A DNA stretch of 64,000 nucleotides from positions 1,798,001 to 1,862,000 of the forward strand of contig NZ_OW711693.1 of NCBI RefSeq assembly GCF_940670685.1. The letters run 5' to 3'. Within the stretch, counting starts at the first letter, position 1. The number at the start of each line of letters is the position of its first letter. The position numbers and the translations under genes were made by a program. Origin of the DNA: Anaeropeptidivorans aminofermentans (GTDB taxonomy: Bacteria > Bacillota > Clostridia > Lachnospirales > UBA5962). Under the pieces are notes generated by a model. That model did not search any database and was not told the DNA's origin. It saw only the letters and a program-made list of their open reading frames with translations. This document shows, piece by piece, positions 9,001 through 60,458 of this stretch.

Positions 9001-9220
9001 GGGTTCACTTGGATTGCCTAAAAGCATAACGGGTCATAATACCCGATACTTATAGAGAGCTAGTGGAATAAAAGCAAAAAGAATTATAAATAGAAGATAA
9101 TAGCCGCATCACCCTGTAAATTCATAGGAACAATGAGTATGCTGTCACCTGCGGAAAAAATCCGCACCGCTATTTCAATTGAAACCAGCTATATGTGAAA
9201 AATATAATCGAAAATTATAG
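9001..9220. other. Non-coding spacer with degenerate repeat traces
   Basis: There is no gene here. The minus-strand reading of about 9105-9140 contains CCTATGAATTTA and resembles the core of the recurring two-hairpin element listed at 9531, 27455 and 28310, but it is weak. Bases 9155-9195 share short blocks (GCTATTTCA, CAGCTATA) with 15868-15893. A small hairpin around 9030-9047 (CGGGT/ACCCG) is also present. Confidence 0.35.
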
Positions 9221-9257: not shown

Positions 9258-9521
9258 ATATATTAAACCTGTGATTGAGAATAGTAGGTTTTATACTAGC
9301 CTTAAAGAGAGTCGGCGTTGGTGAGAGTCCGGCAGGAGGTATTTAATTGAATGGACTCATGAGGGCGGTACGAAAGCCTCTGGCTAGTAGTTACCGACGG
9401 GCTTTTCACCGTTACCATGAAAGATGTATGTTAGTACATGAGAGAGAGCCGTAAGGCTAATTAGGGTGGCACCGCAGGTATGCTCCTGTCCCTTGTTTAT
9501 ACAAGGAACAGGAGTTTTTTT
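9258..9521 (+). promoter_or_regulatory. T-box riboswitch, tryptophan specific (UGG specifier)
   Basis: The leader has a Stem I with the GGTGAGAG distal motif (about 9329-9338), then a specifier-loop sequence GAATGGAC in which UGG (9352-9354) is the tryptophan codon. The T-box sequence AGGGTGGCACCGC follows at 9463-9475. TGGC (9467-9470) would pair with a GCCA tRNA end, which fits tRNA-Trp with discriminator G73. The antiterminator can form from AGGG/CCCT and CAGG/CCTG. The competing terminator stem (9483-9514, one mismatch) is followed by a T run to 9521. Uncharged tRNA-Trp should therefore switch on the downstream transporter genes. Confidence 0.93.
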
Positions 9522-9530
9522 ATTGTCACG

Positions 9531-9628
9531 AAAAGGTACGAACTAGAGAACAGAATAGCTATAGTTTAGAGATGCCCTGTGAAATTAGTAAGAGACGGTT
9601 TGGATTGGCTTATAATCCAAATTTCGCT
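9531..9628 (+). repeat. Recurring two-hairpin intergenic element, copy 1
   Basis: This roughly 98 nt segment opens with AAAAGGTACGAACT and has the core GATGCCCTGTGAAATTAG and GAGACGGTTTGGATT. It lies between the T-box terminator and the trp leader ORF. Hairpin 2 is clear: TTTGGATT (9599-9606) with AATCCAAA (9614-9621). Hairpin 1 is short here (ACAG with CTGT). Related copies are at 27455 and 28310 (plus strand) and, more degenerate, at 59215 and 14466 (minus strand). Confidence 0.7.
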
Positions 9629-14265: not shown

Positions 14266-14465
14266 AGGCCCTCCTGAAAATAGAAGAAATTGCAGATATC
14301 CGATTTATTTTATACCCATATATATATTACAACTATGGGGTTTTGTAAGTGAACGTATATAAATAGAATCAGGCGGAGCTTGCTCCTATTCATAGTATAC
14401 CATAAAGGAAAGTATTATGAATATAGCGTTAAAGTAAATTCAGATTTTCCATATTATAAAATTTG

Positions 14466-14545
14466 GGTTATGGCCCCAGTTAAACTGTTACTTCCTAAAT
14501 TCATAGGATATCTTTGGATAATGTCTCTTACGTTTCTTATGTTTA
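14466..14545 (-). repeat. Two-hairpin element, degenerate copy 5
   Basis: Read on the minus strand, this stretch contains AAAGATATCCTATGAATTTA, then GGAAGTAACAGTTTAACTG and CCCAAATTT, in the order of the element cores at 9531 and 59215. It lies about 200 bp upstream of the minus-strand acetyltransferase start and in the same orientation. The stems are decayed. Confidence 0.45.
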
Positions 14546-14568
14546 CGTCTTTTCATCATGAATAAAAT

Positions 14569-14750: not shown

Positions 14751-14877
14751 TATAGTAAATTAATTATGAAGAAGTAGCAAAAGCCTAATTTCAGCAGGTT
14801 CAAAAGCACGGATTTGGTATATTTTTGAGCCTGTGTAAATATGCGGCTTTGCTACTGTTTAATTTTAAATTTACTAT
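14751..14877. repeat. MITE-like inverted-repeat element A
   Basis: The left end TATAGTAAATTAATTATGAA and the inverted right end ATAGTAAATTTAAAATTAAA begin an imperfect inverted repeat that continues inward through AGTAGCAAAGCC and GGCTCAAAA. It is non-coding, 127 bp, and shares ends with copies at 28411, 30514, 37633, 48107, 52107, 53671 and 56540. Confidence 0.7.
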
Positions 14878-27357: not shown

Positions 27358-27454
27358 ATTTATAATAAGTATAATTACCTAAGTGTGCATATATAGTTAA
27401 CCGGCCTTTTCCGGCTTGTTAACTGGTTCAATGCTTTCTTTTATTTATTAATAC

Positions 27455-27553
27455 AAAAAGGTGCGAACTTAGAGAACAGGGCAGATGTATAAAAGATGCT
27501 CTGTAAACTAGAGCGTACCGGTATAGATTTGTAAAGCAATCTATATTTTGTTG
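27455..27553 (+). repeat. Two-hairpin intergenic element, copy 2
   Basis: AAAAAGGTGCGAACTTAGAG opens the copy. Hairpin 1: ACAGGGCA (27476-27483) pairs with TGCTCTGT (27497-27504), with one G-U wobble. Hairpin 2: TATAGATT (27522-27529) pairs perfectly with AATCTATA (27538-27545). The loops and stem bases differ from copies 1 and 3 while pairing is kept. It ends 22 bp before the DUF177 start codon. Confidence 0.72.
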
Positions 27554-28269: not shown

Positions 28270-28298
28270 TCGCCAAAGCGTAAGCTTTGGCGATTTTT
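28270..28298 (+). terminator. rpmF terminator
   Basis: CGCCAAAGC pairs with GCTTTGGCG around a GTAA loop and is followed by ATTTTTC. It lies directly after the rpmF stop. Confidence 0.9.
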
Positions 28299-28309
28299 CT
28301 TTGCTTATG

Positions 28310-28409
28310 AAAAGGCAAGAACTTTGGGAACGGGGTAGATATGGTTCAAAGATGCTCTGTGAACTTAAAAAGTGACGGTTTGGATTTATGAGACAAGTTC
28401 AAACTTCAT
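28310..28409 (+). repeat. Two-hairpin intergenic element, copy 3
   Basis: AAAAGGCAAGAACTTTGGGA opens the copy. Hairpin 1: ACGGGGTA (28330-28337) with TGCTCTGT (28353-28360), pairing throughout if G-U is allowed. Hairpin 2: GTTTGGA (28378-28384) with TTCAAAC (28398-28404), one wobble. It abuts MITE-like element B on its right. Confidence 0.72.
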
Positions 28410-28410
28410 A

Positions 28411-28641
28411 TATAGTAAATTTCAAATGAAACAGTAATAAAAATCGTATATTTTATGCTTAGTGAACCTGGAAACACTTACAGGGAAACTGTTAAAGTGT
28501 TTTCAGGCGAACGCCCCCTTATAGCCAACAAAGATATTTTAATCTTTGTTGGCTATGAATGGCTTAAACATAGGGCTTTTATATATTTAAGCCGTTTATG
28601 AAAATAGATTTTTATTACATCCTTCTGTGAAATTTACTATA
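28411..28641. repeat. MITE-like inverted-repeat element B, with internal insertion
   Basis: The ends are TATAGTAAATTTCAAATGAA and, inverted, TATAGTAAATTTCACAGAAG. Compared with element C (37633-37762) it is nearly identical on both flanks but carries about 105 extra bases (about 28456-28560). These contain two hairpins: AAACACTT/AAGTGTTT and a strong AGCCAACAAAGAT/ATCTTTGTTGGCT stem at 28522-28553. It sits in the 630 bp gap between rpmF and plsX; the remaining part of the gap (28642-28898) is AT-rich and featureless to me. Confidence 0.7.
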
Positions 28642-37632: not shown

Positions 37633-37762
37633 TATAGTATATTTCAAGTTAAACAGTAATAAAAACCATATATTTTGAAGGGCTTAAACATAGGGATTCT
37701 ATATGTTTAGGCCGTTTATGAAAAATAGATTTTTATTACATCCTTCAGTGAAATTTACTATA
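37633..37762. repeat. MITE-like inverted-repeat element C
   Basis: TATAGTATATTTCAAGTTAA at the left and the inverted TATAGTAAATTTCACTGAAG at the right. The inner part GGCTTAAACATAGGG and TTTAGGCCGTTTATGAAAAA matches element B, lacking B's internal 105 bp. It appears to be the uninterrupted form. Confidence 0.72.
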
Positions 37763-52119: not shown

Positions 52120-52324
52120 TGATGAAGAAGTAACAAAATTCTGTTTCCTGTAAGCTCAAAACAAGAATTTCCTTTGGAAACATAGTGAAATTGTCTTCAT
52201 AATAAATTAACTTATATTTTTTAAGTTAATTTATTATATACCGATTCCATTTTGGCAATGGTGCTAGTTTATATAAATTTAAGCCATATATGGCTTTGTT
52301 ACTGCGTAACTTTAAATTTACTAT
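52107..52324. repeat. MITE-like inverted-repeat element F
   Basis: The left end TATAGTAAGTTAATGATGAA overlaps the acetyltransferase stop codon. The inverted right end is TATAGTAAATTTAAAGTTAC with GCAGTAACAAAGCC. There is an inner inverted pair near 52200-52240 (TAAATTAACTTA/TAAGTTAATTTA), so the element may be nested. The rest of the gap to 52499 is the right end of the IS element. Confidence 0.65.
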
Positions 52325-53670: not shown

Positions 53671-53807
53671 TATAGTAAATTTTTTATAAAAAAGTAACAA
53701 AAAACTATTCGCTATAGGCTAAAAAGCATGGATTTCCTTGGGAAACAGTATATTGTAGAGTCTAAGGGAATATATGGTTTTTTCCTATTTTACTTTAAAT
53801 TTACTAC
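53671..53807. repeat. MITE-like inverted-repeat element G
   Basis: TATAGTAAATTTTTTATAAA with AAAGTAACAAAAAAC on the left; the inverted right end is GTAGTAAATTTAAAGTAAAA. Inner arms include TTTCC/GGAAA. It lies just upstream of the DUF4430 gene; a fragment of the same end sequence recurs near 53871. Confidence 0.65.
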
Positions 53808-56229: not shown

Positions 56230-56493
56230 AATTAAATAATTCTAATTGAAACACTGTGATAAGGAGTAGTAGATTCTTGGATTTTTTCAGAGAGTTGCCG
56301 TTCGGTGCAAGGCAATAATTGAAAAGAATTGAACTCGCCTTGGAGTGGCTTGCTGAATAAAGTAGGTTAAGCCGGTGGTCTACCGTTATATTGACAGAAT
56401 ATCAGCTAAGGCTCGTATTCCGTAAAGTGCGCATTTTGCGAATTAGAGTGGTACCACGGATTTAAACCCGTCTCTTTGTGAGACGGGTTTTTT
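56230..56493 (+). promoter_or_regulatory. T-box riboswitch, leucine specific (CUC specifier)
   Basis: The specifier-loop sequence GAACTCGCC holds CUC (56334-56336), a leucine codon. The T-box motif AGAGTGGTACCACGG lies at 56445-56459. TGGT (56449-56452) would pair with an ACCA tRNA end, which fits tRNA-Leu with discriminator A73. A perfect 11 bp terminator stem (56464-56474 with 56480-56490) is followed by a T run. Uncharged tRNA-Leu should allow read-through into leuA. Confidence 0.93.
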
Positions 56494-56539
56494 GTATGCT
56501 TTTTAACCTTATATCGGGTATCGGTAAAGCATGGCGTAA

Positions 56540-56674
56540 CAGTAGATTTAGAATGAAGCAGTAACAAAACCATATATTCACGTGGGCTCAAAATGTACTG
56601 TTTCCCGCGGAAATCCGTATTTTTAAGTCTATGGTGAATAGGCTTTGTTACTTCTTTATAAGAAATTTACTATA
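56540..56674. repeat. MITE-like inverted-repeat element E
   Basis: CAGTAGATTTAGAATGAAGC with AGTAACAAAACC on the left; the inverted right end is TATAGTAAATTTCTTATAAA with GAAGTAACAAAGCC. Inner TTTCC/GGAAA arms. It lies inside the transcribed leader, between the T-box terminator and leuA. Confidence 0.7.
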
Positions 56675-58426: not shown

Positions 58427-59200
58427 ATGAATAATGAAGATATGAATAATAAAATGGTTTGTATTGAGCCTTATGAAAATGCAATACACGATATTAAAAC
58501 GGCTCTTACTATTATATATTCCATAAACCAACTTATGGACTTTAATAATAGTATTTCTGATGATGTCCGAAAAAATCTTAACATTATTAAAAGAAACTGC
58601 TTAAGGGCAATAAAAATTATTAATGATGTTTCTGATACGACGAAGCTTGATTTTAACTGTTTACAGCCGGAATATACTCGTTTTAATATCGTATCTGTCA
58701 TAAGCGGTCTTATTGAAGGCATAGAAATTTACTCTATGCCAAAGATTATCAAAATAGCCTTGGAGCATGATTTGAAATCAGAGGAAGTTATTTTCGACCG
58801 GATTATGCTTGAACGTATTCTTCTTAATTTAATTTCCAATTCAATTAAATTTATTGAAGAAAGCGGAACAATAAAAATCAATCTTACAGACAGCGAAGAA
58901 GCCATAATAATCAGCTTAAGCGATACAGGAAGCGGCATAAGCAGCGACTTAATATACGACATATTTAATAGATACAACACCAGCGATAATTCAAAGGGCA
59001 GAGGAATAGGCCTTTCCATAGTAAGAGACCTTGTAAATTTACTTGGAGGGAAAATACATATAGAGAGCAAACTGGGAGAGGGAACTACGATTACTTTAGT
59101 ATTTCCAATAAAAAATATATCTGAAGAAAAGCATGAAGATAAGATTCATTCCAATAATTTCTATACAGATAACATAATTAAAATAGAATTATCGGAATAA
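58427..59200 (+). CDS. Orphan cytoplasmic sensor histidine kinase
   Basis: This 257-residue protein has a phospho-acceptor region AIHDIKTALTIIY (about residues 20-32), and an HATPase domain with NLISNSIKF (N box), SDTGSGIS (G1) and KGRGIGLSIV (G2). It lacks a membrane segment, PAS or other sensor domain, and no response regulator is next to it. Stand-alone kinases like this in spore formers may feed Spo0A; that is inference. I use the ATG at 58427 with GGTGAG upstream; an ATG at 58415 is an alternative. Confidence 0.82.
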   Translation: MNNEDMNNKMVCIEPYENAIHDIKTALTIIYSINQLMDFNNSISDDVRKNLNIIKRNCLRAIKIINDVSDTTKLDFNCLQPEYTRFNIVSVISGLIEGIEIYSMPKIIKIALEHDLKSEEVIFDRIMLERILLNLISNSIKFIEESGTIKINLTDSEEAIIISLSDTGSGISSDLIYDIFNRYNTSDNSKGRGIGLSIVRDLVNLLGGKIHIESKLGEGTTITLVFPIKNISEEKHEDKIHSNNFYTDNIIKIELSE

Positions 59201-59214
59201 AGCTTAGATTAGAA

Positions 59215-59275
59215 TTTATCCGGACTGTCACTTCTTAAGTTCATAGGGCATCTGCCTGTTCTTTAAATTCATGCT
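59215..59275 (-). repeat. Two-hairpin element, partial copy 4
   Basis: Read on the minus strand: AAAGAACAGG, then CAGATGCCCTATGAACTTAA and GAAGTGACAGTCCGGAT, colinear with copies 1-3 but lacking the hairpin-1 loop. The CGGATAAA end could pair with TTTATTCCG just beyond, inside the end of the kinase gene. It sits between the kinase and AI-2E-type genes on the opposite strand. Confidence 0.55.
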
Positions 59276-59363
59276 TTTTTATAAAGAATAAATTCATTAA
59301 TAGCAAACTTTGGCAGATAGGCTCCGTATGTTCTTTTATAGTATTTTTTGAAAGGCTGTGCTT

Positions 59364-60458
59364 ATGTCGGACAAATATAATAAACAAATTAATTTTTTGG
59401 TAAATATAGCTTATTACTCTGTAGTCATTGTAATCATCTATATTTTATACAAATATGTATTTAGCCTTCTGCTTCCCTTTATATTGGCTTTTTGTATCGT
59501 GAGCATAGTTCACCCCATGATACGCCGAATAACATCTACCTTGAAAGTTAATCAAAAAATTATAGCAGTTATTATTATGGCTGTAATATACGGTCTTTTG
59601 GGTTTCGGGATATTTTGGATTTTTGCACAGCTTTTTGTCATCATTAAAGAAGGCCTTATTCTGCTTCCGGGGATGTATACTGATAAGATAGCCCCTGCAA
59701 TTACGGCTATAAGTAATTTCTTTGTCAATAATATGAATGATTTTCCGATTAACTTCCCGATTGATTTTCAATTGGAATTATCTGATTTCCAAGGGGATAT
59801 TTTAAGCGCAATACAATCGGCCATACTTAATTTAAGTGAAAAGGGAATTTCCATCATAACCAAGGCTTCAAACAAAATTCCTTCCTTTTTTATAAGTCTT
59901 GCATTTACAATCATGCTTTCATTTTTTATAAGCATGCAGTATGATAATGTGATTAAATTCATTAAAAACCAATTAAGCCCTGAAACAGATAAGCTCTTAA
60001 AGGATATAAAAGTTATTTTTTTTGACACTGTATTAAAATATATAAAAGCATATTTTATATTAATGATAATTACATTTATAGAGATTTCCATAGGTCTTGT
60101 AATTATAGGTGCGGAAAGCCCCATCGCGGTTGCAAGCGGAATAGCCATATTCGATGCTCTTCCTTTTTTTGGCACAGGAGCCGTTATGATACCTTGGATA
60201 ATATTTGAACTTATACAAGGTAATTTAACCTTTGCCATGGGCTTATTGATACTATATGGAATTGTTACCTTTATAAGAAATATTATAGAGCCTAAAGTAG
60301 TGGGGGATCAGCTTGGGCTTAATCCCATAGTGACCCTTATGGTTATTTATATAGGTTTTAAGCTCTTTGGCGTAATAGGAATGATTTTTATGCCTATTAT
60401 CGCACAGATCATACTTGCCCTCCATAAAAATGGAAATATAAAATTATATAAGCAGTAA
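59364..60458 (+). CDS. AI-2E family membrane transporter
   Basis: This 364-residue protein has about eight hydrophobic segments and the family C-terminal pattern (ALPFFGTGAVMIPWIIFEL, RNIIEPKVVGDQLGLNPIVTLMVIYIGFKL at about 300-330). The family includes exporters of autoinducer-2 and ion antiporters, so the cargo is not assigned. Spore formers carry a relative, YtvI. I use the ATG at 59364, 8 nt after AAAGG; GTG at 59358 is too close. Terminator follows. Confidence 0.87.
   Translation: MSDKYNKQINFLVNIAYYSVVIVIIYILYKYVFSLLLPFILAFCIVSIVHPMIRRITSTLKVNQKIIAVIIMAVIYGLLGFGIFWIFAQLFVIIKEGLILLPGMYTDKIAPAITAISNFFVNNMNDFPINFPIDFQLELSDFQGDILSAIQSAILNLSEKGISIITKASNKIPSFFISLAFTIMLSFFISMQYDNVIKFIKNQLSPETDKLLKDIKVIFFDTVLKYIKAYFILMIITFIEISIGLVIIGAESPIAVASGIAIFDALPFFGTGAVMIPWIIFELIQGNLTFAMGLLILYGIVTFIRNIIEPKVVGDQLGLNPIVTLMVIYIGFKLFGVIGMIFMPIIAQIILALHKNGNIKLYKQ

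Follow-up and report, generated by a model that had tools for sequence, protein, structure and literature searches.

A dispersed two-hairpin repeat beside intrinsic terminators in Anaeropeptidivorans aminofermentans is very likely mobile DNA rather than a conserved RNA

A lineage-specific family of dispersed two-hairpin repeats

The recurring two-hairpin intergenic element of A. aminofermentans is, with high confidence, a lineage-specific, non-autonomous mobile DNA repeat rather than a conserved RNA, a reading that rests on its dispersed copies, tandem copies, nested insertions, empty versus filled sites, and fixed insertion points. We further consider it probable that this family of small elements inserts in a single orientation between TTTTAT and T on the 3' side of intrinsic terminators, and that its copies are for the most part decaying and have no RNA action; the step that we infer within this account is movement as single-stranded DNA by a Y1 transposase supplied in trans. 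The window analyzed here is a stretch of 64,000 nucleotides (positions 1,798,001-1,862,000) of the single-contig 3.76 Mb genome, in which dnaA lies at position 331. A sequence model, R1, made from 16 relatives of one copy, recovers 107 matches at E<=0.001 and 137 at E<=1 across the genome, with both strands represented, and a blastn search with one copy as query finds >25 relatives within the same genome. The behavior as a dispersed repeat that the original prediction had deduced from the window is seen genome-wide. The unit measures ~104 bp (range about 103-107 bp), and many of the genomic copies are truncated or interrupted; the family as a whole looks old, with present copies that are mostly decaying.

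Five copies fall within the window. Copy 1 (9524..9627, plus strand; body TGTC-ACGAAAAGG...TTTCGC; R1 match 9516-9628, E 2.2e-24) directly follows the terminator of a T-box leader (RF00230; 9262..9496, plus strand; Rfam match of 115 bits), whose terminator hairpin and U-tract (about 9483-9523) constitute its insertion site; its hairpin 2 is intact and its hairpin 1 decayed. Copy 2 (27449..27551, plus strand; TAAT-ACAAAAAGG...TTTTGT; R1 match 27442-27553, E 1.5e-25) is found between ackA and a DUF177/YceD gene, a few bases 5' of the Shine-Dalgarno of the latter. Copy 3 (28303..28409, plus strand; GCTT-ATGAAAAGG...CTTCAT; R1 match 28296-28410, E 8.4e-27) is directly 3' of the terminator that follows rpmF (TCGCCAAAGC-GTAA-GCTTTGGCGA-TTTTTCTTT), with about 450 bp, including another mobile repeat (28412..28640), between it and plsX. 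The R1 matches (E 2e-24 to 8e-27) agree with the three plus-strand copies proposed earlier, and the degenerate minus-strand copies proposed near 59215-59275 and 14466-14545 are likewise recovered. The former is copy 4 (59196..59292, minus strand, E 2.9e-12), which has lost the hairpin-1 loop, and the latter is copy 5 (14456..14567, minus strand, E 1.7e-10), which lies 3' of the terminator GGACGGGG-CATAAA-CCCCGTCC-ATTTTATT. A further minus-strand copy suspected at 9105-9140 gave no R1 match at E<=5. A pattern derived from copies 2 and 3 was found twice in the window against a chance expectation of 0.02. The proposed placement just upstream of growth genes is partly right: it applies to copy 2, with its position before the DUF177/YceD Shine-Dalgarno, but less well to the more distant copy 3, and 42% of the genomic copies are antisense to the next gene. 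The window also holds a second T-box leader at 56247-56478.

Anatomy and fixed, covarying ends

The consensus reads TAAT-AYRAAAAGGCACGAACTTAGAGAACAGGGCAGATATGGTTTAAAGATGCCCTGTGAACTTAGNAAGTGACGGTTTGGATTTGTAAANCAAATCCAAA-TTTYRT and follows the plan TAAT-AYRAAAAGG, hairpin 1, hairpin 2, TTTYRT. Hairpin 1 is a long irregular helix: its tip pairs ACAGGGCA with TGCCCTGT and is followed by an AGA/GAA internal loop, below which come CTTAG opposite CTTAG with one T.T, a GA/RA mismatch, and a short CAC/GTG helix. The earlier description had captured only part of this hairpin, which is longer, with the CTTAG/CTTAG segment, G.A mismatches between helices, and further outer pairs; owing to this architecture, GAACTTAG resembles a direct repeat. 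Hairpin 2 is formed by GGTTTGGATTTG/CAAATCCAAA. With hairpin 1 starting ~12 nt from the left end and hairpin 2 ending ~6 nt from the right end, both ends carry near-terminal palindromes.

Tandem junctions together with empty-versus-filled sites fix the ends of the element. Head-to-tail arrays occur at genome positions 136,929-137,347 (4 copies) and 487,277-487,488 (2 copies), and in both the units join as TTTYRT|TMAT-AYRAAAA. The empty sites are provided by an unrelated repeat with terminal inverted repeats (TIR repeat), one copy of which was detected by a terminal repeat scan at 28412..28640 (ends ATAGTAAATTT...AAATTTACTAT), where it abuts copy 3. In our comparison four clear TIR-repeat copies, with more elsewhere, carry the element at one internal spot, and 19 lack it; for example, empty GAG|TCTCTAGCGAATCG corresponds to filled GAG|TAATA...TTTTGT|TCTGTAGCGAATCG. 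The flanks of the filled sites match the empty sequence and, a single ambiguous T aside, no target bases are duplicated; the base following TTTYRT is T in 38/46 copies. The nesting goes both ways: about a dozen element copies are enclosed in the TIR repeat, always at one internal position, and the TIR repeat may have carried them along; it is also inserted in the hairpin-1 loop or stem of several element copies. Members of this TIR family (~125-230 bp, inverted ends, apparently flanked by TA) occur in the window at 14752-14877, 28412-28640, 37634-37761, 52199-52324, 53672-53807, and 56539-56673.

The extreme ends AYRAAA and TTTYRT are complementary and covary in four versions, viz., ATA/TAT, ACA/TGT, ATG/CAT, and ACG/CGT. 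The counts for one end pair are T-A 31 and C-G 10 versus T.G 4 and C.A 2, and for the other A-T 21 and G-C 16 versus G.T 8 and A.C 3. This covariation of the two extreme ends is real and was unexpected. The complementary segments span only six bases, with the left one offset by 4 nt from the boundary; covariation between the left flank and AYRAAA was looked for and not seen.

Insertion behind intrinsic terminators

Many copies directly follow an intrinsic terminator, with TTTTAT just before them, and share one orientation relative to the T-tract. The target is T-rich and at terminators usually reads TTTTAT|T, though variants such as TTTTTGAG also occur. The 56 nt upstream of the copies have a mean folding energy of -13.1 kcal/mol, versus -7.0 downstream and -6.8 in shuffled DNA, and a strict terminator test is passed upstream by 31/91 copies and downstream by 4/91; inspection by eye reveals more upstream terminators, whose imperfect stems fail the strict test. 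Copies in lagging-template orientation number 56/91, a bias that is inseparable from gene orientation.

The same type of site is used by resident insertion sequences. The genome has ~24 IS200-type TnpA genes, and nearly all the IS200 copies that were read, including one in the window, lie 3' of terminator T-tracts at TTTTATT sites and end in ..CATGATT or ..TATGATT, a site preference that is almost uniform across several IS200-like families. The insertion sequence in the window (TnpA, PF01797; 52373..53102, ends approximate, minus strand) is directly 3' of a terminator T-tract and has end sequences unlike those of the two-hairpin repeat.

Phyletic distribution and strain comparison

Searches of 6 sister genera and of 288 more genomes from the order, the latter scoring 12 candidates per genome, did not detect the family. 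The search of the genome and its wider relatives called for by the original prediction returned 107 matches at home and none among these 294 genomes. When GTDB contigs were scanned with a pattern, a single true match emerged, in the MAG UBA11329, the sole other carrier found. This MAG (G007; DMJQ01000163 and other contigs) seems to be a mixture, since its matching contigs are ~99% identical to the source genome and another contig, from the ackA region, is only 68% identical. For the contigs bearing two of its copies, no counterpart was found in the source genome, only one of these contigs having been searched genome-wide.

Comparison of the two strains, which are ~99% identical, revealed no insertion specific to either. 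Orthologous copies differ at 1/863 sites, compared with 9/1567 in the intergenic DNA next to them (p 0.11) and 42/5510 across all intergenic DNA (p 0.02), and copy 4 is identical to its ortholog across 97 aligned bases; these numbers are too small to claim selection, though the one result leaning the other way leaves some room for it. Other differences between the strains include an extra partial tandem copy of ~68 bp, probably arising from slippage, in the ortholog (G007:C124:1338-1515) of the copy at G000:C1:951472. A 260-bp stretch near one copy (about 2044-2304 in the local sequence of the source genome versus 2044-2047 in that of the second strain) is present in the source genome and missing from the second strain. 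In an AI-2E-family transporter gene of the window, 78 bp (26 codons; 59620-59697) are missing from the near-identical MAG contig G007:C177, an in-frame strain difference.

How the element might move

Given a mobile repeat, we consider a Y1 (IS200/IS605-type) route fairly probable, as suggested by hairpins close to either end, by insertion without target duplication, and by a site preference in common with the resident IS200. Along this route the element would move as hairpin-bearing single-stranded DNA, with the Y1 transposase acting in trans. Its right end, TTTYRT, would mimic the TTTTAT target, so that new copies land behind old ones and give rise to the head-to-tail arrays. However, no insertion sequence with the ends of the two-hairpin repeat was found among the resident IS200 copies read, whose end hairpins are unrelated to it. 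The pairing of the left with the right end also falls outside the known scheme of IS608, where the guide of each hairpin pairs with its own cleavage site. The covarying ends would be just as well explained as a terminal repeat that some other enzyme recognizes, which is the case in the SMR elements (PMC3119063) discussed below.

This brings up the best-surviving alternative, that of a small transposon with terminal repeats, moved by an enzyme other than a Y1 transposase and leaving its target unduplicated, as with the SMR elements of Haloquadratum. The short complementary and covarying ends AYRAAA/TTTYRT, the length of about 104 bp, the absence of target duplication, and the strong preference for hairpin sites would all be accommodated by such a transposon. 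It is nonetheless unlikely, as the complementary ends comprise only six bases and stop short of the left boundary, the element bears large subterminal palindromes, and the genome is rich in Y1 transposases with the same type of site.

Returning to the Y1 route, a more specific version can be sketched tentatively. Hairpin guide sequences are described as pairing with the target (PMC7290912); in the present element a left guide and the right end might pair in alternative versions, with the right end copying the terminator tail, such that terminators are found by sequence and a new target is made with each insertion. The family could then represent a class of terminator-homing elements intermediate between PATEs and SMRs, perhaps with targeting in common with the resident IS200 transposases. 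We regard this version as possible, though less likely than not.

Evidence for and against an RNA

A cis-regulatory or trans-acting structured RNA, built from a terminal stem plus two hairpins, the first of them long and irregular, and used upstream of many genes, is improbable, despite several features that it would explain. As RNA, the consensus has a very strong fold (z -5.2), but this strength is rarely seen in individual copies, just 14/75 of which reach z<-3 (mean -1.5), with values that weaken as copies diverge and are equal on the forward and reverse strands (p 0.36). Among the three plus-strand copies of the window, copy 2 is the best folder (whole-copy RNA z -4.2; DNA z -2.8), with copies 1 and 3 at -1.1 and -2.1; hairpin 1 is largely lost in copy 1 and absent from the best fold of copy 3.

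The covariation is similarly two-sided. RNAalifold returned no pairs for either 16 or 87 copies, after which the stem pairs for the mismatch and covariation counts were named by hand. With these, the covariation score of 83 distinct copies exceeds that of all shuffles, and the ends of the element covary, as a terminal stem would have it. Such a score is not decisive since related copies can yield the same excess, and by inspection the excess lies largely in a few subfamily-marking pairs (86-104, 20-78, 91-99, and 84-106), with the double changes in most other stem pairs being near the product of single changes. The stem changes that the original prediction took as covariation are mostly single transitions and subfamily differences. 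A structure maintained as RNA is expected to tolerate G.U and avoid A.C; the stems of 81 copies contain 197 G.T and 188 A.C (p 0.68), an equality that points to symmetric neutral decay.

The genomic context adds to the case against an RNA. Copy 2 does sit directly before a Shine-Dalgarno, and copies are slightly better conserved between strains than intergenic DNA overall. However, the next gene is in sense orientation for 52 copies and in antisense for 37 (89 copies with a callable downstream gene), and many copies lie behind a terminator, where their transcription would require read-through or a new promoter. The element was found in a single lineage and has no Rfam match: with Rfam 15, at gathering as well as relaxed thresholds, the whole window has only the two T-box leaders, with copies 2 and 3 showing chance-level matches, in keeping with the earlier statement that no known RNA family was recognized. 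The original prediction left a choice between a structured RNA and a hairpin-type mobile repeat; the evidence favors the latter, given a structure not kept copy by copy, strand-symmetric wobbles, mixed gene orientation, and a family found in one lineage only.

Two further readings are very unlikely. A reverse-splicing retroelement, such as a degenerate group IIC intron, would share the target type, as group IIC introns insert after intrinsic terminators (PMC4424553), along with the single orientation and the lack of target duplication, and the internal AYRAAA could pair with the upstream TTTTAT as an 'exon'; its identity as a group IIC intron is, however, largely refuted by the absence of the maturase domain PF08388 from the genome, the missing landmarks (no GUGYG start and no Rfam intron match in the window), and a length too small for the catalytic domains. 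Spread chiefly as passengers of the TIR repeat, without mobility of their own, would account for the copies sharing one internal TIR-repeat position but not for the majority, including all three plus-strand copies of the window, which are unenclosed and abut different gene terminators.

Significance and comparison with known systems

Intrinsic terminators are safe landing sites in compact genomes. The convergence of a non-coding repeat and several IS200 families on the same type of site offers about a hundred natural insertions for studying the choice of terminators by single-strand transposons. The family also carries a caution, in that what looks like a convincing two-hairpin 'RNA', seemingly compensatory changes included, can turn out to be a mobile repeat in decay; equal counts of G.T and A.C mismatches are a cheap test for distinguishing the two.

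In being extragenic, hairpin-forming, of high copy number, and decaying, the family resembles REP/BIME and bcr-type repeats, from which it differs in sequence, with no GTAG/CGTC tag or linked REP transposase seen. It shares insertion after terminators with group IIC introns, but those are ribozyme retroelements, whose maturase and intron landmarks are lacking here. Among IS200/IS605 insertion sequences, the resident IS200 copies likewise occupy TTTTATT sites 3' of terminators; their right ends have a hairpin set a few bases inward, and no target duplication was seen, but they encode TnpA and have end sequences unrelated to those of the two-hairpin repeat.

Two further parallels come from Haloquadratum. 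PATEs are palindrome-associated transposable elements of Haloquadratum walsbyi whose palindromes resemble IS605-type ends (PMC3119063). Like them, the two-hairpin repeat is too short to code, has palindromes near both ends, makes no target duplication, attains a high copy number with strongly divergent copies, and is targeted by and nested with other mobile repeats; it differs in that no insertion sequence with matching ends was found and in the short complementary, covarying pair at its ends. SMR-A elements measure about 110 bp, occur in up to dozens of copies, have prominent terminal repeats and near-identical copies, and insert within palindromes of other mobile elements (PMC3119063). The two-hairpin repeat is comparable to these in length, copy number, complementary ends, lack of target duplication, and strong preference for palindromic sites; in contrast, it inserts beside terminators, has internal hairpins, and has short terminal repeats. 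No library match was found for the family, which combines features of PATEs with those of SMRs without being fully either.
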